Source of the DNA: a virus
Reading direction: 5' to 3' (one strand)
Virus record (IMG/VR): IMGVR_UViG_3300044637_000813
Coordinates: 1 to 32,021 of that record
Length of the DNA: 32,021 bases
Position numbers and translations under genes: made by a program. The notes beneath the pieces were generated by a model. That model was given only the letters and a program-made list of their open reading frames with translations. It ran no database searches and had not been told where the DNA came from. This document shows positions 3,496 to 32,021 of this stretch, piece by piece; the stretch's first letter is position 1; the number at the start of each line of letters is the position of its first letter.

Positions 3496-3861
3496 ATGGG
3501 AAAAAAAATCAAAATCACAGAAGAACAATTAAAGAAAATAATTGCGTCTAAACAAGTAAACGAACAATCTGCTGGTGCAGTTGGTGTTGAAAATGGTATG
3601 GATGTTGCTAGCGAAACAGAAAGAATGATTGATAGTTTTGTTAGTCAATATAAGGATTTGGTTGCGGGTTCAGAATTCGATAGTGAAGAGGCTCTATTAA
3701 ATGCTTGTGACATATTAAAAAATAAGTTATGTAGTAATAATGAACCAGTAGATTACACTATGGGTAGTGATGATGAAAACATGATGCCAAACCCACCTTC
3801 AGAAATTAATATGAACGAGTCGGTAATCAAAATAAAATCAGAATTTAATAGATTTTTATAA
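3496..3861 (+). CDS. Tagged hypothetical protein with C-terminal NES-EF-RF motif
   Basis: The 121-residue product begins MGKKIKITEEQLKKIIAS and has VNEQS at 21-25, a textbook example of the long tag shared across this window (E23-Q24). The mature part is acidic (DSEEALLNACDILKNKL, GSDDENMMPNPPSE). It ends with MNESVIKIKSEFNRFL (106-121), and the neighbour at 3861 ends with a closely similar LNESIKKEFDRFIK. The shared tail suggests either a second protease or scaffold-binding signal, or descent from one protein. Stop and next start overlap (TAATG at 3859-3863). No domain recognised; an internal virion or core protein is my inference. Confidence 0.65.
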   Translation: MGKKIKITEEQLKKIIASKQVNEQSAGAVGVENGMDVASETERMIDSFVSQYKDLVAGSEFDSEEALLNACDILKNKLCSNNEPVDYTMGSDDENMMPNPPSEINMNESVIKIKSEFNRFL

Positions 3862-10244: not shown

Positions 10245-10814
10245 ATGGGAGACCCAATACTAAAAATAGGTTACTATTCAATTTATCAAATAAAGACCAC
10301 TAGAGGGGTAAAATATAAAGTTGATAGTGGTAAGACCATATACATTGAAAGGTTTAAAAAACACATCGTAAATCCGTATAGAGACACTAAGGAGTTTACT
10401 TCTCTTGAGAAGGCTAAAGAATATATAGGTCTTAAATTGGTAAAAAGGGGTCAGGACAAAAAGAAAAAACTAGCAAAATTACCAAAATCATTATATCTCG
10501 TATTAATAAAAGAAGAATCTACAGGTAAAACATTTGTTAAGGTTGGTATAACATCTAAAAGATTCATAATGAGACGTTTTAGTAAAGCGTATGGGTATGA
10601 GGGATATATTGTTGAGTCGATATTAAGAAGGATTGAAACACCAAATGCGGAAAAATTAGAAAGTGATATTAAAGAAAAACTTAATAAAAAAAGGTCTGTA
10701 AAAAAATACAGACCAATTTTAGAATCTTTTTCGGGTTATTCTGAATGTTTTAACTACGACGGATTAGACGAAATTATTAAAATTTTCGATGAATTAGTTA
10801 CCAGAGGGTCTTAG
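10245..10814 (+). CDS. GIY-YIG/T5orf172-like endonuclease domain protein
   Basis: 189 residues. An N-terminal Lys-rich region (residues 1-75) with strand-like IYQIKTTRGVKYKV probably binds DNA. The second half resembles the GIY-YIG superfamily in its T5orf172-like form: SLYLVLIKEE, then FVKVGITSKRFIMRRFSKAYG (V-K-x-G-I-T-x4-R-R-F), a basic helix and E-K-L-E-S-D-I-K-E-K-L bearing the metal-binding Glu position. The first YIG tyrosine is represented only by LYLV. Free-standing nucleases of this type are often homing enzymes in phage genomes. The gene is oriented against its flanks, and its last 21 nt overlap the convergent LysM gene. Confidence 0.6.
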   Translation: MGDPILKIGYYSIYQIKTTRGVKYKVDSGKTIYIERFKKHIVNPYRDTKEFTSLEKAKEYIGLKLVKRGQDKKKKLAKLPKSLYLVLIKEESTGKTFVKVGITSKRFIMRRFSKAYGYEGYIVESILRRIETPNAEKLESDIKEKLNKKRSVKKYRPILESFSGYSECFNYDGLDEIIKIFDELVTRGS

Positions 10815-15692: not shown

Positions 15693-16943
15693 ATGGGTAA
15701 CAACAAAATTTTCATTCAAATTGCATCTTATCGAGATCCGCAATTAGTACCAACAATAAAAGACTGTATAAAAAACGCAAAAAAACCGGAAAATTTAGTT
15801 TTTTCAATTGCTTGGCAAAGGTCAAAAGAAGATGAATGGGACAATTTAGATGAATTTTCAAATGACAAGAGATTCAAAATAATTGACATTAATTACGAAG
15901 ATTCTAAAGGAGCATGTTGGGCTAGAAATAAATTACAACAACAATATGACGGAGAAGAATATACAATTCAATTAGATTCTCATCATAGATTCGCGGAAAA
16001 TTGGGACGAAGACTGCATAAAAATGATTAAACAATTACAGAAAAAAGGACATAAGAAACCTTTACTAACGGGATATGTATCATCGTTTGATCCCGATAAT
16101 GATCCAGCTGGCAGAATCCAAGCCCCATGGAAAATGAATTTTGATAGATTCATTCCTGAAGGTGCGGTGTTTTTCTTACCTGCAACAATTGACGATTATC
16201 AAAAAAGAACAGAACCTATACCCGCTAGATTTTATTCAGCACATTTTTGCTTTACATTAGGTTCTTTTGTTAAAGAAGTTCCACATGACCCCGAATATTA
16301 TTTCCACGGAGAAGAAATTTCAATTGCGGTAAGAGCATACACGTGGGGTTATGATTTATTTCATCCACATAAAACCGTTGTGTGGCACGAATATACTCGT
16401 AAGGGTAGAAAAAAACAATGGGATGACGATAAACAATGGGTAACCAAAAACGTAAGTTGTCATAAAAGAAATAGAAAATTATTTGAGATGGATGGTGAGG
16501 TAAAAGACATTGATTTTGGGATTTATGATTTTGGTAAAGAAAGAACTTTAGAGGATTATGAAAGATATGCGGGAATTTCATTTAAAAAGAGAGCGGTGCA
16601 AAAATATACGGTAGATAATAATTTAGCACCCAATCCACCTTTATATGGTGATGAATTTAATGATTCATTTTTATCAATTTTTAAACATTGTATTGATGTT
16701 ACTTTTGATAGAGTACCTGAAAATGATTATGATTTTTGGGTTGTTGCTTTTCATAATGAAAAAGATGAAACTCTTTTTAGAAAGGACGCAGATAAAGATG
16801 AAATACGAAGATTAAAAAGTGACCCTGATGGATACTGTAAAATTTGGAGAGAATTTACAGTTGAAACAAAGCCAAAATATTGGGTTGTTTGGCCACATAG
16901 CGAATCTAAGGGTTGGTTAGAAAGAATAATCGGAGATTTATAA
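15693..16943 (+). CDS. GlcNAc-type glycosyltransferase (PF11397-like)
   Basis: 416 residues. The N-terminus NKIFIQIASYRDPQLVPTIK is the signature opening of the GlcNAc-transferase family first described from Skp1 glycosylation. It is followed by the GT-A core: NLVFSIAWQ, DSKGACWARNKLQQQYDGEEY, TIQLDSHHRF (DxH/DxD metal site around D95) and FHGEEISIAVRAYTWGYDLFHP with the E-E pair used late in the fold. VVWHEYTRKGRKKQW closes the domain. The last ~85 residues (FDRVPENDYDFWVVAFHNEKD) are an extra domain also ending in WVVWPHSESKGW. It probably transfers HexNAc to a hydroxyl of a protein or glycan. First gene of a five-gene operon; upstream 110 nt show no clear promoter motif. Confidence 0.75.
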   Translation: MGNNKIFIQIASYRDPQLVPTIKDCIKNAKKPENLVFSIAWQRSKEDEWDNLDEFSNDKRFKIIDINYEDSKGACWARNKLQQQYDGEEYTIQLDSHHRFAENWDEDCIKMIKQLQKKGHKKPLLTGYVSSFDPDNDPAGRIQAPWKMNFDRFIPEGAVFFLPATIDDYQKRTEPIPARFYSAHFCFTLGSFVKEVPHDPEYYFHGEEISIAVRAYTWGYDLFHPHKTVVWHEYTRKGRKKQWDDDKQWVTKNVSCHKRNRKLFEMDGEVKDIDFGIYDFGKERTLEDYERYAGISFKKRAVQKYTVDNNLAPNPPLYGDEFNDSFLSIFKHCIDVTFDRVPENDYDFWVVAFHNEKDETLFRKDADKDEIRRLKSDPDGYCKIWREFTVETKPKYWVVWPHSESKGWLERIIGDL

Positions 16944-16951
16944 ATCATATC

Positions 16952-17707
16952 ATGAAAATTTGTTTTTTAACAGAAGCTAATTATCCTAATTACGTCAAGA
17001 GAGTAAAGGATTACAATATTAAAAGATTTTTAGAATTAGGGTTAGATATACCATTTTATATTTCAACAAATCTAAAAGAAGAATTTAGTGAGTATGAAAA
17101 TCATCCACTAATAAAAGTTTTTGATATTGAAGATTTAAGAAAGGATAATGAAAAATCAAAAATAAACGAACCATTACCTGAAGACCCTTCTGGTTTATAT
17201 CCTGCTAGATATCCGTGGAATTTAAGAAGGTTTATTTTAAAAAAGGCTGCCGAAGATGGTTATTTAGGTTTATATTTTTTAGAATGTGATACTAAAATAA
17301 AAGATGGAGTAACAAAAGAAGATGTTATGAATCATTTATTAAATTTATACGAACCAAATACCATTAAAACATCTTCTGCAAGATTCGTCTACAAACACAG
17401 ATACCCAACACAAGAATTATTTTATTATCATCAAAAATATATCGATGATTTAAATCTTAATTTTAGTGAAGATGAATACGATACATTAGACGGAACAAAT
17501 CAATTATTTTTTGGGGAGAGTAGGGAAAGTTTCGATAAGTTTTTTAATAATTGGGACTATATTGTGGACTACGGTTATGAAAAATCGTATGGCTATAAAA
17601 CAGGGTATCTATCAAATCTATCTTTTGTAATACCAATGTCTAATTTTAAATTAATACACACTGACACTATGTTTGTTACAAATCACGTTTATGAGGATAG
17701 ATATTAA
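16952..17707 (+). CDS. GT-A-like putative glycosyltransferase
   Basis: I start at ATG 16952 (251 aa), 8 nt after the preceding stop; an upstream in-frame codon would overlap the previous gene. The product opens MKICFLTEANYPNYVKRVKD and contains YPWNLRRFILKKAAEDGYLGLYFLECDTKI, where E-C-D is a likely DxD-type nucleotide-sugar site after a hydrophobic strand. DGTNQLFFGESRESF and the final IHTDTMFVTNHVYEDRY resemble the acceptor region of small GTs. No standard family is recognised with certainty; operon position supports sugar transfer or a related step. Confidence 0.55.
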   Translation: MKICFLTEANYPNYVKRVKDYNIKRFLELGLDIPFYISTNLKEEFSEYENHPLIKVFDIEDLRKDNEKSKINEPLPEDPSGLYPARYPWNLRRFILKKAAEDGYLGLYFLECDTKIKDGVTKEDVMNHLLNLYEPNTIKTSSARFVYKHRYPTQELFYYHQKYIDDLNLNFSEDEYDTLDGTNQLFFGESRESFDKFFNNWDYIVDYGYEKSYGYKTGYLSNLSFVIPMSNFKLIHTDTMFVTNHVYEDRY

Positions 17708-17718
17708 AAAATATAAAG

Positions 17719-19236
17719 ATGTTTACAATACAAAATTTTAACTTTGCAAATAATGGATATTATATTAACTTGGATTCTTCAACCGATAGAAAAAATCATA
17801 TAGAAGAATTAAAGATTAAATATGACATTCAAAATCTAAATAGATTTTCAGCATTAACTGATGAAATGATACAATATTCATGTACTAAAAGTCATTTAGG
17901 GGTATTTCAAGATGCACTTAATAATGATTATGAAGTTATTTTTGTTTGCGAAGATGATATGGATATAAATGATGTTTGTTATTTACCAAATAGTCAAACT
18001 AAACCAACATTTAATGATTTAATACCTCAAATTTATAATGACTTACAAAATGTAGAGTGGGATGTTTTATTATTTGGTTGTAATCCAAAATCAAATCTAA
18101 TACCCGTCACAAATACCTTATCAAAGATTGATAGAAGTACAGGTGCATGGGCATATTTGATTAAGAAAAGGGCGTATGAGTATGTTGTTAATAATTTAAA
18201 TTATAGAAAAGATTTATTGGCAATAGATGATTTTTTACCTAGATTAAATGATGAAGGATTTGTAACTTTAACCACGGTACCGATGATTATAAATCACGCG
18301 GTGGGATTTGTTTCTACACTACAACCAAGAGGTCCTGTTAACTATAACGCTTGGATACAAGGTAATTACGATAGATTCATTTATAGCAATTATAATATAG
18401 ATTTTACTGAGGAAAAGATAGAAAAGGACGTTACAATTGTAATTGCTGGACATTTTGTTGAAAATTATTTGTATTATTTAAATTATCTATTACATAGTTT
18501 ACCTAGTGAGTTACTAAAGTGCAAATTTTTAGTTCATTATGACGAGTCGGGTAGTAACGATATTAATTTAGAAAAATTCAAGTTAAACGCATATTTTAGA
18601 GACGCTAAAAGTGAATTAAATGTTACCATGACCACAGGATTTGGTGGTCTAATTTCAACATTTAAGAATGTTATTAGTAGAATTAAAACTCCGTATTTTA
18701 TATTTTTAGAACATGATTGGGTTTTTCTAAAGAAAGATAATATTGATTTTTTAAAATTAACTCAGTCATTTAAAAAATATGATTTTGTAAATTCGGTATG
18801 GTTCTCAAAAGACGATAATACAATGAGAGGATTCGATATTGCTAGAGATGTTGAAGATAATGTCACGCCTTTTGATAGGGAGTCTAGAATTGATGAAATC
18901 GATTTGATTACAGTATGTAGGTGGTCTAATAATCCGGCAATGTTTAGACTTAGTAAATTCAAAGAATGGTTCGACAAATACATTAATAATGAACATGTAG
19001 GTACGGTACATCAAGGTCAACATAATGTTGAGGAAACGATGATACCTACATATAGAAAGATAATTAGTGAAAATAAATGGGAAGATATTAAAGATGATTG
19101 GGGGACATATTTGTATGGTGACATTGGAGAGGGTCCATATGTTGGTCATACAGACGCATCTAGACGTTATCAAGGAGCATCGAAATCAGGTCCCGAATAT
19201 AATGGAGAAGAATACATAAAAAATAACCCTTTATAA
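17719..19236 (+). CDS. Bifunctional GT25-type plus GT-A glycosyltransferase
   Basis: 505 residues, two domains. Residues 1-~215 follow GT25 (LPS beta-galactosyltransferase type): GYYINLDSSTDRKNHIEEL, RFSALTDEM, SCTKSHLGVFQDALNNDYEVIF, CEDDMDI (ExDD motif) and AWAYLIKKRAYEYVV. Residues ~228-505 are a second GT-A-like unit: VTIVIAGHFVENYLYYLNYL, LVHYDESG, TPYFIFLEHDWVF (ExD), then a C-terminal segment ending RRYQGASKSGPEYNG. Each domain probably adds a different sugar, as in processive capsule or LPS enzymes. It lies 11 nt after the previous gene and 3 nt before the next. Confidence 0.7.
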   Translation: MFTIQNFNFANNGYYINLDSSTDRKNHIEELKIKYDIQNLNRFSALTDEMIQYSCTKSHLGVFQDALNNDYEVIFVCEDDMDINDVCYLPNSQTKPTFNDLIPQIYNDLQNVEWDVLLFGCNPKSNLIPVTNTLSKIDRSTGAWAYLIKKRAYEYVVNNLNYRKDLLAIDDFLPRLNDEGFVTLTTVPMIINHAVGFVSTLQPRGPVNYNAWIQGNYDRFIYSNYNIDFTEEKIEKDVTIVIAGHFVENYLYYLNYLLHSLPSELLKCKFLVHYDESGSNDINLEKFKLNAYFRDAKSELNVTMTTGFGGLISTFKNVISRIKTPYFIFLEHDWVFLKKDNIDFLKLTQSFKKYDFVNSVWFSKDDNTMRGFDIARDVEDNVTPFDRESRIDEIDLITVCRWSNNPAMFRLSKFKEWFDKYINNEHVGTVHQGQHNVEETMIPTYRKIISENKWEDIKDDWGTYLYGDIGEGPYVGHTDASRRYQGASKSGPEYNGEEYIKNNPL

Positions 19237-19239
19237 TAT

Positions 19240-19857
19240 ATGAAAGTTAATTTATTTACGGGGTGGTTTTACGAACCCAAAAATGAAATAAGAGAATCTG
19301 AATTTGATTATTGTTATCAAATAAATAAAAATTTAAGTTTTGATAATTACATTATTGATACATCAAAGAGACCAACTTTTAATAATTTTTTAAAAGAAAT
19401 AGAAAAATATCCAAACGATATAAACATAATTGCTAATCCCGATAATTTTTTTGATGAGACATTTTTAACTGAGTTACGTAATCTATATACGAATTACAAA
19501 GAAAAAGAAAAACTATGTTTAGGATTAACAAGATGGAATTATGTTAATGAAAACCATATTTGGTTTTTTAATGCAAAGGATTCGCAAGATGTCTTTATAT
19601 TTTATGGTTCTATTAATTTAGACGAATATGAAGAAATACCTTTTGGTGTGCCTGGAGGTGATAATAGGATGGCAGCATGGTTAATGCATAATTTTAATAA
19701 AAATGTATATAACCCAAGTAAAGATTTAAAATATTATCATTATCATCCATCAGATGATTTAACCAGAACATATTTGGATGAAAACAGACAAAGAAAATCT
19801 TACATAACCGGACCACATGAATTTTTAATTCCATGTTCATTAAATGATATTAAATAA
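19240..19857 (+). CDS. Glycosyltransferase-like protein, 205 aa
   Basis: Opens MKVNLFTGWFYEPKNEIRES. It has NDINIIANPDNFFDETFL (N-P-D after a strand, a DxD-like site), LCLGLTRWNYVNENHIWFFN, the block IPFGVPGGDNRMAAWLMHNF, then YNPSKDLKYYHYHPSDDLTRTY. I have seen the G-x-P-G-x-D-N-R ... H-x-H pattern in glycosyltransferase clusters, where it occurs with nucleotide-sugar enzymes, but I cannot name the family. Its TAA overlaps the ATG of the next gene by one base, so translation is coupled to the fusion protein that follows. Confidence 0.55.
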   Translation: MKVNLFTGWFYEPKNEIRESEFDYCYQINKNLSFDNYIIDTSKRPTFNNFLKEIEKYPNDINIIANPDNFFDETFLTELRNLYTNYKEKEKLCLGLTRWNYVNENHIWFFNAKDSQDVFIFYGSINLDEYEEIPFGVPGGDNRMAAWLMHNFNKNVYNPSKDLKYYHYHPSDDLTRTYLDENRQRKSYITGPHEFLIPCSLNDIK

Positions 19858-22196
19858 TGATAGAGAATATATTATCTTTTACAAATAAAAAAATAGATTC
19901 GTCAATTATTAATGACGAACAAATAAAAAATTTGGTTTTCTATTTGTTAGATTCTATCGATAATAATGTCGAGGGTGACGTTGTTGAGTTTGGGTGTTAT
20001 GTTGGGGAGTCTAGCAAATACCTAATGAAGACATTGTTAGAATCAAATTCAAATAAAAAACTTTTTGTTTACGATTCTTTTGAAGGTCTACCTCCATTAT
20101 CTAAATGGGAAGAAAATAGCGGGTGGAGAGCCGGAACACTAAAAAGTAGTGAAGAAGTATTAATCTCAAACTTCGAACAGAATAATCTACCATTACCTAT
20201 AATACATAAGGATTGGTTTAAGAACGTTCCTGAAGATAAAATACCTGAAAAAATATCTTTTGCTTTTTTAGATGGTGATTTTTACGATTCAATATATGAT
20301 AGTTTAAGTAAAGTTTTTGATAGAGTTACTGATGGAGGTTATATTTGTTTTCATGATTACCAAAGAAATGATTTACCAGGCGTTCGTGCTGCAATAGAAG
20401 ATGTTTTTAAAGAAAAGGGAGTTGATTATACTGTAGAAGAAGTTTGTGAACAATTAGGGGTGTATAGAAAAAATGGTATAATTGAAAATAAAATACCTAA
20501 AAGACCCAATGGTGAAGTTAAATATGGTGGGACAACAATTGTCACTGGTATTTGGGATATTAAAAGAGAAGAACTTACTGAAGGTTGGAGTAGAAAATTT
20601 GACCATTACTTAAATCATTTGTCTAATTTGATGAAGACAGATGATAACATGATAATTTATATTGAGGAGAAGTATAGGTCATTTGTTGAGGAACGTAGAG
20701 CTAGAGAGAATACATTAATAATTGTTAGGGAACTAGAATGGTTTAAGAAAAGTGAATTCTTTGATAAGATTCAAAAAATAAGAAATAATCCAGATTGGTT
20801 TAATACATCTGGATGGTTACCTGAAAGTACTCAAGCAAAATTGGAAATGTATAACCCAATTGTCATGTCAAAAGTGTTTCTTTTAAATGATGCATCAATA
20901 ATGGACCCATTCAACTCATCTCATTTAGTTTGGGTGGATGGTGCAATTACAAATACGGTACACGAGGGTTATTTTTGGAAAGATAAAATTACCAATAATA
21001 TAAGTAAGAATTTCAACAAGTTTACATTTGTTTGTTTTTCATATGATGGTAAAGTTGAAATACACGGTTTCAAATATGATGAGATGTGTAGATATTCTGA
21101 AGACGAAGTAAATAAAGTTGCAAGAGGCGGAATATTTGGTGGTCCTAAACATATGATTAGTAAAATCAATGAAATATATTACTCATTGATGAACGACACA
21201 TTATCCAATGGATTGATGGGAACTGAGGAAAGTCTTTTTACTATTATTACATACAAGTATCCTGAATTAGTACAATATTATGAAATTGGTCAAGATGGAT
21301 TATTGGGTGTGTTTTTTGAGAATTTAAAAAATGACACGTTATTAGCAAAACAAGAAAAATCAAGTGTGGTTCAAATTAACCCACATAGTAAAGAAAATGT
21401 TGCACTATATGTAATGACATATAACTCACCAAAACAATTTGAAAAATTATGTATGTCTTTTGAATTGTATGATAGAAATTTTTTAGACAGACCAAAGAAG
21501 TTTTTATTAAATAATTCATTAAATAGAGAAACGGATGTTGAATATTCAACATTGTGTACGAAGTATGGTTTTGAAGAAATAAAGAAAGATAATTTGGGTA
21601 TTTGTGGTGGAAGACAATTTATTTCGGAACATTCGGAAGAGAATGGATTTGATTATCATATGTTTTTTGAAGATGATATGTTTTTTTATTTAGGTCCTGA
21701 TGAATTTTGTAAAAACGGTTTTAAAAGAAAAATAAAAGATTTTTACAATGTCATGATGGATATTGCTTGGACCGAAAACTTTGATTTTCTAAAATGGAAT
21801 TTTACTGAATTTTTTGGTAGTAATAGTAGACAATGGTCTTGGCATAACGTATCTATTGACACTAGATCTAAATTGTTTCCTGAAAAACCTGTCAAAACGA
21901 ATAATGACCACAATTACGCACCTTACACAAATTTTAAAAATATTAAAATCCATAGATCTGTTCCATATATAACCGGTGAGATTTATTATTGCAATTGGCC
22001 TCAAGTTGTATCCAAAGAGGGGAATAGGAAAATGTTTTTGGCAATTAAATGGGATAGCCCGTTTGAACAAACATGGATGTCCCATATATTTCAAGAGACA
22101 TTAAAAAACAACATAAAGCCGGGACTATTATTAGCATCCCCCACAGAACACGATAGGTTTGAACATTATTCAAGTAATGAGAGAAGAGAAAACTAA
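19857..22196 (+). CDS. Three-domain fusion: TylF-like methyltransferase, HtrL/YibB-like domain, GT2 glycosyltransferase
   Basis: 779 residues. Residues 1-~210 are a SAM methyltransferase of the TylF/macrocin-O type: GDVVEFGCYVGESSKYL (SAM loop), FVYDSFEGLPPLS, SFAFLDGDFYDSIYDSL (LDGD metal motif), GGYICFHDYQ and GVRAAIEDVF. Residues ~225-480 match HtrL/YibB: TTIVTGIWDIKREEL, EKYRSFVEERRA, MYNPIVMSKVFLLNDA, LVWVDGAI and GGIFGGPKHMI. Residues ~515-779 are a GT-A domain: VALYVMTYNSPKQFEKLC, NLGICGGRQFISEH and YHMFFEDDMFFY (EDDM). One polypeptide could both O-methylate and glycosylate a growing chain, methyl capping being a known way to stop polymer growth. Last gene of the operon, ended by a terminator 5 nt downstream. 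Confidence 0.8.
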   Translation: MIENILSFTNKKIDSSIINDEQIKNLVFYLLDSIDNNVEGDVVEFGCYVGESSKYLMKTLLESNSNKKLFVYDSFEGLPPLSKWEENSGWRAGTLKSSEEVLISNFEQNNLPLPIIHKDWFKNVPEDKIPEKISFAFLDGDFYDSIYDSLSKVFDRVTDGGYICFHDYQRNDLPGVRAAIEDVFKEKGVDYTVEEVCEQLGVYRKNGIIENKIPKRPNGEVKYGGTTIVTGIWDIKREELTEGWSRKFDHYLNHLSNLMKTDDNMIIYIEEKYRSFVEERRARENTLIIVRELEWFKKSEFFDKIQKIRNNPDWFNTSGWLPESTQAKLEMYNPIVMSKVFLLNDASIMDPFNSSHLVWVDGAITNTVHEGYFWKDKITNNISKNFNKFTFVCFSYDGKVEIHGFKYDEMCRYSEDEVNKVARGGIFGGPKHMISKINEIYYSLMNDTLSNGLMGTEESLFTIITYKYPELVQYYEIGQDGLLGVFFENLKNDTLLAKQEKSSVVQINPHSKENVALYVMTYNSPKQFEKLCMSFELYDRNFLDRPKKFLLNNSLNRETDVEYSTLCTKYGFEEIKKDNLGICGGRQFISEHSEENGFDYHMFFEDDMFFYLGPDEFCKNGFKRKIKDFYNVMMDIAWTENFDFLKWNFTEFFGSNSRQWSWHNVSIDTRSKLFPEKPVKTNNDHNYAPYTNFKNIKIHRSVPYITGEIYYCNWPQVVSKEGNRKMFLAIKWDSPFEQTWMSHIFQETLKNNIKPGLLLASPTEHDRFEHYSSNERREN

Positions 22197-29290: not shown

Positions 29291-29319
29291 AAACAAAAAA
29301 CCCATCCGAAGATGGGTTT
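29291..29319 (-). terminator. Intrinsic terminator of the tmRNA gene
   Basis: On the - strand, AAACCCATC-TTCG-GATGGGTTT is followed by TTTTTTGTTT, immediately downstream of the encoded CCA of tmRNA. A stable UUCG loop with a U-tract. Confidence 0.85.
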
Positions 29320-29320
29320 A

Positions 29321-29717
29321 TGGTGGAGGTGACGGGACTCGAACCCGTGTCTTTCCTGTTCAACAATAAATGACTACACGTTTATTCTATTAGTTCATAA
29401 CAGACAAATAGAAGGTTAATTACAGGAAACCATCAATACTGTTCCTAACCGGATTTTCAAGAGCCGTCAGATTTGCTCCAACACTCTTCGGGTGGTGTTA
29501 CACCTTGAAGGCTTCTGTTCCTAGGTTACATGCCAGTCGACCCGATTGTAGTTTCGCCTTAGGCTACTGCTACGTTAGAAGTTGCAAGTAAACCTGCAAT
29601 TTCCATGTTGTTATAAACGTTGCCGTCTAGAATTTTCCACCATAGATTTAAGTCATAGATGAAGTCTGACTACGTGCCACTTACCCCTGATACCTGAAAT
29701 CAATGCCAAGCACCCCC
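29321..29717 (-). ncRNA. ssrA: tmRNA (transfer-messenger RNA), phage-encoded
   Basis: The ends form the alanine tRNA-like domain: 5' GGGGGTG (29711-29717) pairs with CACCTCC (29325-29331), followed by discriminator A and encoded CCA (29321-29323). The third pair is G-U, the identity element for alanyl-tRNA synthetase. The T arm reads ACGGGTTCGAGTCCCGT. An internal ORF follows TAGAC, in the position of the resume signal. It begins GGC (29622-29624) and ends TAA (29559-29561), giving GNVYNNMEIAGLLATSNVAVA. Bacteroidota tags also start with Gly but are typically short (GENNYALAA), so this 21-residue tag ending VAVA is unusual. The 3' part between tag and T arm has space for pseudoknots. It rescues stalled ribosomes and tags the nascent chain for proteolysis. 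It has its own host-type promoter and terminator. Confidence 0.92.
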
Positions 29718-29732
29718 GTAATAAATAGAATA

Positions 29733-29764
29733 CAAATGTAGATGAGAAAGGGTTAAAAAACAAA
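29733..29764 (-). promoter_or_regulatory. Bacteroidota-type promoter of tmRNA (TTTG-N20-TACATTTG)
   Basis: TTTG (29761-29764) and TACATTTG (29733-29740) on the - strand are separated by 20 nt, a full match to the host consensus. The mature tmRNA 5' end is 15 nt past the -7 element, leaving a short leader for RNase P to remove. Confidence 0.8.
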
Positions 29765-29797: not shown

Positions 29798-30097
29798 TTA
29801 CTTCTTAGCGGCTGGTTTTCTTCCTTTGCGAGAACCACCTTTAGTTGCGTTTACAACATCTTTAGATTGCTTAACAACTTTTTTAGCGGCTTCAGCAACA
29901 TCCTTAGTTTCTTCAACTACTCTTTTTACTCTTTCCTTAACCACTTTAGCAACTTCTTTAACTTCCGCCAATTTTTCTTCAACCGCATCTGGAATGTTAT
30001 TACCATCTTTGTCTTCGATTTTACCTGATTTCATTAGGAAAAATACTACCGCTCCAGCCACAACCAAAGCCAATAAAATTAAAAGTACTGTCATCAT
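29798..30097 (-). CDS. Membrane-anchored Lys-rich helical protein, 99 aa
   Basis: One N-terminal transmembrane helix (TVLLILLALVVAGAVVFFLM, residues 3-22) without a cleavage site. It is followed by GKIEDKDGNNIPDAVEE, an EF-hand-like Asp-rich loop seen also as D-x-N-x-I-P-D in dockerin-like calcium sites. Then come amphipathic repeats (KEVAKVVKERVKRVVEETKD, VAEAAKKVVKQSKDVVNATK) and a basic tail (GGSRKGRKPAAKK). N-out/C-in or the reverse cannot be told. Size and layout allow a holin-like or membrane-scaffold role. Either of two adjacent Met codons may start it. A TATTTATA motif lies 16 nt upstream. Confidence 0.6.
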   Translation of the reverse strand: MMTVLLILLALVVAGAVVFFLMKSGKIEDKDGNNIPDAVEEKLAEVKEVAKVVKERVKRVVEETKDVAEAAKKVVKQSKDVVNATKGGSRKGRKPAAKK

Positions 30098-30139: not shown

Positions 30140-30823
30140 TCAATTAACCCTTAAAGGGAAGTGTTTTTCGTATAATGCCTCAAAAAACAACTTATTTTTT
30201 TCCCATTGTTTATTTACCATACCAATGGATTTATGTGTTACCATTATTTTAGTGGTAACCCCAACTTTAATCCCATCTAAATGGTTGTCAACACAAAACG
30301 GTAAATCATAGAAATGGAACCCTGTAAATTCTTCATTAAACTTATGTTTAATTCTATCTTTATGAACCATAATAAATAACCCATCAACAATAACCACTTC
30401 TTTTGGTTTGTCACCAAATGATTGTTTTGAGTAGTGATTTACATGTCTTTTACCTTGATGTTCATGACCAACAACACCATACATAGATTCTTTATCCTGC
30501 CACCACATTCCACTCATTAAATTATTAGTACCGGCCAATCCTATTATGCCATATTCAGGATTCTCCTCAAATAATCTAATAACTTTTGGTGTGATATTAG
30601 GGGTTTCCAAAATAAGATCGTCATGCATAAACACCACAATATCATTTTCGGAATCTTGTAATCCTAAATTATAAATTTTGGGTAATGAATCCACACCATC
30701 ATTCTCATAAATTAATATTTGAGTTTTAGGGTGTGAAAACATTTTCTCAACGTGTTTTAAATACGTATCATCTATTTTTCGTGTTGAAATGACAACACTA
30801 ATTGGTCCATTATATTTCGACAT
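30140..30823 (-). CDS. GT2-like glycosyltransferase
   Basis: I prefer the ATG at 30823 (MSKYNGPISVVISTRKID, 227 aa) over the ATG three codons earlier. The GT-A fold is clear: PISVVISTRKIDDTYLKHVE, ILIYENDGVDSLPKIYNLG, DIVVFMHDDLIL (the H-D-D metal site), EYGIIGLAG, VVIVDGLFIMVHKDRI and FTGFHFYDLPFCVD, followed by a histidine-bearing strand ILVTHKSIG-like (KIMVTHKSIG). This order fits the StrF-like group of small GT2 enzymes. Its start overlaps the upstream phosphoesterase gene by 14 nt, so the two are co-expressed from the host-type promoter at 31565. It is separate from the main glycosyltransferase operon and possibly expressed earlier. Confidence 0.75.
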   Translation of the reverse strand: MSKYNGPISVVISTRKIDDTYLKHVEKMFSHPKTQILIYENDGVDSLPKIYNLGLQDSENDIVVFMHDDLILETPNITPKVIRLFEENPEYGIIGLAGTNNLMSGMWWQDKESMYGVVGHEHQGKRHVNHYSKQSFGDKPKEVVIVDGLFIMVHKDRIKHKFNEEFTGFHFYDLPFCVDNHLDGIKVGVTTKIMVTHKSIGMVNKQWEKNKLFFEALYEKHFPLRVN

Positions 30824-31559
30824 GAGTTGCAATTATTTCACCATAAACTTCTTGTAAGTCTATGATTATTGGTTTATTTATTGGTTCGTATTTTGAGTTA
30901 CAAGTTGATGCATTTACGAATAATGTTTTATTACCGAGCTCAACACCATAACCTTCGTGAATATGACCAAATACACTTACTAATGGATTTATTTCTTCTA
31001 TTCTATTTCGTAACAACTCACAACCTACGTTTGTATTTGGTTGTCGCCAATTATTAACTAAATCTCCGTATCCATTTGGTGGTCCATGTGTTATTAATAC
31101 ATCAGTATCTTCTGAAATCATATTCCACTTTTCTTGTAACTCAACCCCAAATCTTGGTAAGTTAAAAGCCCAATCATAAAAATTTGGTTGCCAAGGACTT
31201 CCGTAGATTTTAATTGGTCTTGAAAATTCAGGTGACTCAATAGTCATAAAATTATCTTCCAAATAAGTCACATTGGATTGAGATAGATTTTCAGGAGTCA
31301 TTAGATTGTTTAACCAATCGTAGTCGCCTTTATGGTGCGGTTGATTAACCCGCTCAAAACAGAAATCGTGATTACCCGAAATAAAAATTTTAGAGTCAAA
31401 CCCTTCTATGTTTTGAAACCAATGAATAAATTCTGTCACATCTCTTTCTCCACCTCTATTTGATAAATCACCCGCATGTATTAACACATCACCTTGTGGT
31501 AATTCGTGGGTCATACCTCTATGTAAGGCATGTGTGTCGGATATACAAACTATTCTCAT
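30810..31559 (-). CDS. Calcineurin-like metallophosphoesterase (MPPED/UPF0046-like)
   Basis: 249 residues with the complete metal-binding set in order: RIVCISDTHALH (D8, H10), LIHAGDLSNRGG (D31), KIFISGNHDFCF (N63, H64), VLITHGPPNGYGD (His) and VSVFGHIHEGYG (GHxH). The spacing and the THGPP and FVNAS blocks resemble the MPPED/UPF0046 branch rather than Lambda-type protein phosphatases. It probably hydrolyses a phosphodiester or phosphomonoester (cyclic nucleotide, RNA end or protein); the substrate is not visible. First gene of a two-gene operon with a GT2 glycosyltransferase. Confidence 0.85.
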   Translation of the reverse strand: MRIVCISDTHALHRGMTHELPQGDVLIHAGDLSNRGGERDVTEFIHWFQNIEGFDSKIFISGNHDFCFERVNQPHHKGDYDWLNNLMTPENLSQSNVTYLEDNFMTIESPEFSRPIKIYGSPWQPNFYDWAFNLPRFGVELQEKWNMISEDTDVLITHGPPNGYGDLVNNWRQPNTNVGCELLRNRIEEINPLVSVFGHIHEGYGVELGNKTLFVNASTCNSKYEPINKPIIIDLQEVYGEIIATHVEI

Positions 31560-31619: not shown

Positions 31620-31999
31620 AATCTTTTTTGGGCCGAACGGTTTTAAAACGTTCCAATTCCACCACTTTGTTTTACTAAACAAAGAAAATAAAACACTGAG
31701 AATACATGTCTTAATAATTGACTTAGGGACATTATTTGTTTCTTCCCTTTTCCACTACCTTTTGAGTAGTACCAATCAGCGGCGGTCAATTAGATTAACC
31801 AATCCTTGAGTCGTTATATACTCTTTTAATACTCATTACTCATCAAAGATGCCTCCCTGATTCAACCTTGCGGGTTTAGAGAACTTTTTTAAAAATCACA
31901 TTGGGCTTGAGACCCTTTGTGGCCGTGAACCCCTCACGACTATGTAGCCACCTGTCTACAACGACTGACGAACACTTCTTCTTGTATGATTTTAAGTTG
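31600..31999 (-). ncRNA. Unidentified structured noncoding RNA, about 400 nt
   Basis: The 31560-32021 stretch has no credible ORF, and its base composition is visibly richer in G and C than the flanking genes. On the - strand it contains many local helices: GTGGC/GCCAC (31947-31951 with 31919-31923) enclosing GTGA/TCAC; TGTAG/CTACA overlapping the first as an alternative; AACC-CGCAA-GGTT; GGTTAAT-CTA-ATTGACC; ACTAC/GTAGT around a 7-nt loop; CTTTGTTT/AAACAAAG; GAACG/CGTTC. It ends in a strong terminator and may start from TAATTTTG at 32006. I see none of the conserved blocks of RNase P RNA, SRP RNA, 6S RNA, tRNA, or group I or II introns. Large ornate phage RNAs such as ROOL or GOLLD are possible relatives but were not tested. 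Confidence 0.6.
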
Positions 32000-32005
32000 T
32001 TAAAC

Positions 32006-32013
32006 CAAAATTA
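32006..32013 (-). promoter_or_regulatory. Possible -7 element for the large RNA
   Basis: TAATTTTG on the - strand fits TAnnTTTG. The matching -33 element would lie beyond the window edge. Confidence 0.4.
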
Positions 32014-32021
32014 ACAAAATT

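Follow-up and report, generated by a model that had tools for sequence, protein, structure and literature searches.

The window analysed here is an entire IMG/VR virus contig of 32,021 bases, classed as linear and therefore probably a fragment, and the carrier of the tmRNA described below is a large virus of lake bacteria. On its minus strand lies a one-piece tmRNA gene of 397 nt with an encoded CCA end (29,321–29,717), preceded by genes for a small membrane-anchored protein (29,798–30,097), a glycosyltransferase (30,140–30,832; Pfam PF13712) and a metallophosphoesterase (30,810–31,559; Pfam PF00149), and by a GOLLD RNA that is cut by the window end (31,693–32,021; RF02032, 235.5 bits), all on the same strand. 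This order, from GOLLD RNA through metallophosphoesterase, glycosyltransferase and small membrane protein to tmRNA, is recurrent: the glycosyltransferase keeps its position in two relatives (L214 and L215), both of which also have similar open reading frames in the place of the small membrane protein. A complete GOLLD RNA was found in 14 of 23 relatives, in 13 of these 14 at most about 4 kb upstream of the tmRNA and on the same strand, and tRNA arrays are often located further upstream of the block.

The tmRNA gene is framed by recognizable transcription signals. The element TACATTTG (29,733–29,740, minus strand) follows the pattern TAnnTTTG, which we take to be the Bacteroidota housekeeping promoter element and which was found 17–29 nt 5' of the tmRNA in 46 of 47 distinct upstream regions, compared to 4.8% of shuffled ones. 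Directly 3' of the gene, the sequence reads as an intrinsic terminator, ACCCATC-TTCG-GATGGGT-TTTTT (29,295–29,317, minus strand). The closest metallophosphoesterase from an isolated phage is that of Flavobacterium phage immuto (44% identity). Given the promoter element, the immuto relative and the gene setting, the host is likely a member of the Bacteroidota, as a first-pass annotation of the window had assumed from the letters alone, and probably Flavobacterium-like. Separately, many relatives (e.g. L025, L035 and L260) carry between promoter and tmRNA a GTTCTTTAAAATAT-like leader that resembles the boxA antitermination element; no such boxA-type leader was seen in the window.

ARAGORN called a single tmRNA in the window, at 29,321–29,717 on the minus strand, and the covariance search with the tmRNA model agreed with this interval, RF00023 matching it from end to end (78.3 bits, E = 5e-29, cut-off 47). 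Scores against this model were about 67–102 bits across the lineage, versus 126–162 bits in 56 Flavobacteriaceae genomes. Relatives were recruited through the adjoining metallophosphoesterase rather than through the tmRNA itself, which yielded 20 viral contigs, and a tmRNA was present in all 20 (by ARAGORN, Rfam or the tag pattern). In an alignment of 14 of these relatives, 28 pairs of the tRNA-like domain (TLD), H2 and PK1 were examined, and all 392 cells across the acceptor stem, T-stem, H2b and both PK1 helices held standard pairs. Six pairs in the acceptor stem, T-stem, H2b and PK1 had changed on both sides, and pairing fell to 41–56% in a control in which partners were slid by 1–3 columns. 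The G3-U alanine identity pair (G3 at 29,715, partner U at 29,327) is a GU pair in 14 of 14 relatives, and PK1 (29,636–29,671, minus strand; AGUCA/UGACU crossing UUCAUC/GGUGGA) had both helices paired in all 14, one of its pairs having changed on both sides. The phage-encoded tmRNA and the identity pair read by the first-pass annotation are thus both borne out, by ARAGORN, RF00023 and pairing in 14 relatives. Its check on pseudoknot placement came out in part: PK1 is firmly paired, whereas PK2–PK4 were placed by Rfam with low posterior. The folding energy of the whole tmRNA was not significant (z = −1.3).

The tag reading frame resumes at a GGC codon at 29,624 and encodes a 21-codon tag, GNVYNNMEIAGLLATSNVAVA, followed by UAA (29,559–29,624, minus strand). 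ARAGORN reported only ATSNVAVA for the window and the full tag in relatives, for instance GNVYNNMEVAGILATSNVAVA. A search with a degenerate tag pattern recovered tags of 20 or 21 codons in 71 viral stretches. Because such a pattern selects for the tag, the search was repeated in a tag-blind manner, with a pattern placed 5' of the tag, in the PK1 region. Every readable tag in this second set was open, giving 30 distinct tags of 20 or 21 codons (one locus ends early), all 30 of which begin with Gly or Asp, residues that along with Ala are the customary ones at a resume codon, and terminate at UAA or UGA. A frame closed in related phages, which would have counted against the tag, was therefore not seen; the 21-residue tag is real, and its length of 20–21 codons is kept in all relatives. 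Judged from its letters and their conservation, the window RNA is most probably a functional phage tmRNA, with the G3-U pair, a tRNA-like domain, PK1, an open tag, a host-type promoter element of its own and a terminator.

The tags fall into two families, one GNVYNNMEIAGLLATSNVAVA-like (family 1) and the other GNTFAKMATLGLTREASVVAA-like (family 2), which have in common their length, Met7, Gly11 and an Ala end, and little else. Family 1 has two endings, VAVA (as in the window) and KVAA, while family 2 bears charged residues in the middle of the tag (LTREAS, LIAEEAP). All tags of the lineage end in Ala, VAA or AVA being the commonest endings in the tag-blind set. The first-pass contrast of a VAVA end instead of the usual LAA is thus literally true and yet overstated, since the terminal Ala is kept throughout; with such a degron-like end, a loss of proteolysis is not indicated. 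Comparison with host-type ssrA tags does reveal a clear difference in length: Flavobacteriaceae tags are 9 residues long and of the GENNYALAA type, versus 21 residues here, in two sets of genomes of which the first was chosen by a GENNYALAA-type tag and the second without that selection. Because host-type tags have 9 residues, the phage tag is not a recent host copy. We also considered a host copy or prophage as the origin of the sequence, and found this unsupported: the tag DNA had no match in 84,980 genomes (with an exact pattern, which distant variants could escape), and the upstream pattern had none in 198 Bacteroidota genomes. A blastn search of INPHARED with both tag families likewise returned no nucleotide match among isolated phages.

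An intact tRNA-like domain could also serve as a decoy, the RNA binding host SmpB or alanyl-tRNA synthetase and thereby inhibiting host trans-translation, and inhibition of tmRNA has been shown for a molecule of the phage DS6A type, which has a TLD only (PMC4131195). A decoy would have no need of a reading frame, yet the frame, its length and the stop hairpin are all kept across two divergent tag families, and in some relatives an SmpB gene directly follows the tmRNA. We consequently regard a decoy role as highly improbable.

Codons 7–16 of the tag form a hairpin, hereafter hairpin X (29,577–29,604, minus strand), which is translated in full. Hairpin X folds in every variant, with a mean z of −4.1 across 68 distinct sequences, and in 12 variants the natural codons were more stable than 94–99.7% of synonymous codings drawn with the codon usage of the window. 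Two codon types shift the 5' strand by one column, so that the unsplit alignment of 48 rows is uninformative for covariation; once split by register, 90% of cells were paired, and a double-sided change was seen at a single pair only, carried by L266 and L280. These two sequences have U-A in place of A-U, by two synonymous changes (Ala GCA to GCT and Leu CTT to CTA), and in family 2 one hairpin pair is found as U-G, C-G and U-A, the pair counts of family 2 alone being not significant against shuffles. Taken together, the synonymous-codon test, the compensatory A-U/U-A change and the U-G/C-G/U-A series argue that hairpin X is conserved as RNA. The peptide is under selection as well: loop codon 12 has seven spellings in family 1 and always encodes Leu, Ile or Val, remaining constant in class. 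The middle T of this codon was fixed in the tag search pattern, and the tag-blind set agrees.

A second, H5-like hairpin (29,548–29,573, minus strand) holds the UAA in its apical loop; its folding z is −0.9 in the window, weaker than the mean of −2.1 in relatives. Across 68 sequences, the stop triplet is unpaired in 41 (window included), at the loop edge in 12 and paired in 15, with a further helix preceding it. A textbook tmRNA has its frame ahead of helix 5, whose loop contains the stop codon (PMC1168896). By this rule the second hairpin would be H5, whereas Rfam aligns hairpin X to H5; hairpin X could thus have been inserted ahead of H5, or it could be H5 proper, the stop having shifted downstream. 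As the textbook stop already sits in the helix 5 loop, the frame seemingly contains one more helix than usual, and an in-tag hairpin that has to be translated is an unusual layout for the mRNA-like part of a tmRNA. One way to account for it is that hairpin X is a recoding element at which ribosomes skip or stop, the real tag being shorter. The tag without codons 7–16 would be close to host length, and the unusual conservation of hairpin X would fit such a role; however, the amino acid class is retained at the hairpin codons, those of the unpaired loop among them, and the total length stays at 20–21 codons, in frame, in both families. We therefore consider recoding very unlikely.

Several relatives encode further components of the pathway. 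SmpB was found in 8 of 55 records, most relatives being without it, and in two records it starts 46 and 72 nt 3' of the tmRNA. These two proteins share about 50% identity with Flavobacterium SmpB, and the SmpB of relatives are full length (TIGR00086, 174–176 bits, cut-off 119), with a C-terminal tail that aligns with that of Flavobacterium SmpB. As a side observation, PHROG 6791, labelled as of unknown function, matches the SmpB at L214:3020–3457 (161 bits).

Of 21 records, 18 encode a double-AAA+ protein of about 675 residues, for which the best solved relatives are ClpC proteins. It has a UVR motif, two AAA+ modules and a ClpP-docking type of loop, GVGF or GIGF. Three of these proteins gave no hit to the Clp_N domain and all three begin at the D1 module, which is why we name them ClpC-like. 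The gene lies upstream of the tmRNA and on its strand, at 9–29 kb in family 1 and at 2.7–2.9 kb in the four family-2 records measured. In family 2, two opposite-strand genes intervene, and ClpC and tmRNA thus do not form an operon there. In one relative (L305; G016:57300–60000), the second Walker A motif of the ClpC-like gene also seems to be the site of an intein-like insertion.

ClpP was detected in 11 of 21 records, including 7 of 7 contigs over 200 kb. These proteins have the Ser-His-Asp motifs (GMAASMGS, MLHQ, RDLWL) and match PF00574, while remaining below the NCBIfam ClpP cut-offs (236 versus 361 bits), and they also resemble phage head-maturation proteases among the PHROGs. A role as capsid protease was considered and is unlikely, since a separate gp21-type prohead protease is also present beside ClpP in 11 of 12. 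In two genomes ClpP is flanked by genes for a recombination nuclease and a sigma factor, away from capsid genes. None of SmpB, ClpC and ClpP was seen in the 32 kb window fragment, in which the place of the ClpC-like gene known from relatives would fall past the contig end. The co-occurrence of tmRNA, ClpC and ClpP may only reflect the large size of these phages.

We consider it somewhat more probable than the alternatives combined (roughly 55%) that the phage tmRNA works, freeing stalled ribosomes and marking the released peptides for Clp proteolysis, possibly by a phage ClpC-ClpP. The RNA would be charged by host alanyl-tRNA synthetase and delivered by host SmpB, or by phage SmpB where encoded, to ribosomes that have come to a halt on broken messages. 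These would then resume at GGC, unwind hairpin X and stop in the next hairpin, releasing a peptide with a 21-residue tail whose conserved Ala end would act as a degron. Tagged peptides would probably be destroyed by phage ClpC-ClpP, perhaps together with host ClpXP, and the outcome would be a recycling of ribosomes and amino acids during the destruction of host messages. A match between tag and phage protease is suggested by their co-occurrence and by sequence. ClpC proteins usually bind adaptors through their N-domain. An N-domain-less ClpC would instead read its substrates via the pore, which would suit a C-terminal degron and makes phage ClpC-ClpP a likely destination. The first-pass proposal that an altered tag could change the fate of tagged proteins hence gains a concrete candidate in the ClpC-like and ClpP proteins of the larger relatives. 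A stricter version, in which the tmRNA, sometimes with phage SmpB, adds a phage-specific tag that is read directly by the adaptor-domain-less ClpC and destroyed by phage ClpP, as an exclusive and orthogonal pathway, is a tentative proposal that we hold to be doubtful.

The tmRNA might also work without any match between its tag and a phage protease, host ClpXP degrading the tagged peptides and the tag middle being a by-product of the hairpin. All tags end in Ala, usually as VAA or AVA, and ClpX of E. coli recognizes chiefly the terminal Ala-Ala carboxylate, a five-residue degron being sufficient for GFP (PMC7652416). A tag of 20–21 residues therefore exceeds what ClpX needs, and the RNA-level selection on hairpin X could explain the excess. 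Against this stand the conservation of the peptide where the RNA is free, at loop codon 12, and the ClpC-like gene in 18 of 21 records, which in family 2 is less than 3 kb away from the tmRNA, and degradation by host ClpXP alone seems to us unlikely, albeit a serious contender. A tag that is not degradative at all, protecting or relocating proteins or jamming host proteolysis and thereby turning off host quality control during infection, would be in line with a tag middle unlike the observed host tags and charged in family 2; however, the Ala-ended tail is kept in both families and the phages carry ClpP, which leaves this reading quite improbable. Proteolysis of tagged peptides by Clp enzymes, possibly those of the phage, remains our preferred interpretation.

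Phage tmRNAs, phage SmpB and long tags are already known, and the present tmRNA is a new variant among them. With the one-piece tmRNA of Bacteroidota (RF00023, tag GENNYALAA) it shares the TLD, the G3-U pair, H2, PK1, a Gly resume codon and, in most variants, a stop codon located within a hairpin loop or at its edge; it differs in a tag of 20–21 codons rather than 9, in the extra translated hairpin and in its other pseudoknots, which have diverged. Tags of over 20 residues occur in mycoplasmas and in phage Bxz1, and we know of no in-tag hairpin of this kind in long-frame tmRNAs. The mRNA-like region reaches up to 126 nt in the plastid of Odontella (PMC1168896). With all of these long-frame tmRNAs, the one described here has the long frame in common, and the sequences are unrelated. 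Among phages, tmRNAs are recorded for mycobacteriophages (Bxz1, Wildcat and others) and Bacillus phage G (PMC4131195), for 402 of 18,146 phage genomes, with a two-piece tmRNA in Methylophilales phage Melnitz (PMC9004378), and, together with SmpB, for huge phages (PMC7162821). A complete tmRNA on a phage is what these cases share with ours, Melnitz differing in its two-piece form, and for known phage tmRNAs no link to a phage ClpC or ClpP is known to us. Our searches of the open-access literature turned up no earlier account of this tag lineage, of its in-tag hairpin or of an association with ClpC and ClpP, which does not prove that none exists.

The reason why phages carry tmRNAs is unsettled, with proposals ranging from ribosome recycling to sensing of the host state. 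In the present case an entire phage lineage retains a tmRNA whose tag is its own and is conserved both as a peptide and as an RNA hairpin, and the larger phages of the lineage add degradation enzymes. The question thereby becomes testable, namely as a preference of phage ClpC-ClpP for the phage tag over the host tag. If true, this would be a virus-encoded orthogonal protein-tagging system, which would also be useful as a tool.

Several further observations were made along the way. The tmRNA T-loop is seemingly split by a group I intron near GGGTT in ten relatives (L027, L040, L043, L048, L049, L074, L079, L080, L085 and L087), confirmed by the Rfam model RF00028 in L040, L043 and L085 and read from the sequence in the others; to our knowledge, T-loop tmRNA introns have not been described for phages. 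The copy in the window is without an intron. Group I introns in the T-loop of bacterial tmRNA are otherwise known, and the commonest tag length is 10 residues (PMC11915505). In five relatives (L034, L041, L061, L082 and L085), ARAGORN reported a tRNA with a CUA anticodon, labelled Pyl and likely an amber suppressor; the tag stops in phages with this tRNA are UAA. Within the window, a block of glycosyltransferase and methyltransferase genes (GlcNAc transferase, GT25, TylF/HtrL) occupies 15,693–22,196 on the plus strand. Finally, many window proteins share an N-terminal peptide like MKIVLTENQLKKII..E, among them the open reading frames at 3,496, 4,219, 4,829, 5,208 and 25,174 (plus strand) and at 10,794 (minus strand), and this peptide resembles the capsid-targeting sequence of T4 internal proteins, relatives having the gp21-type protease.
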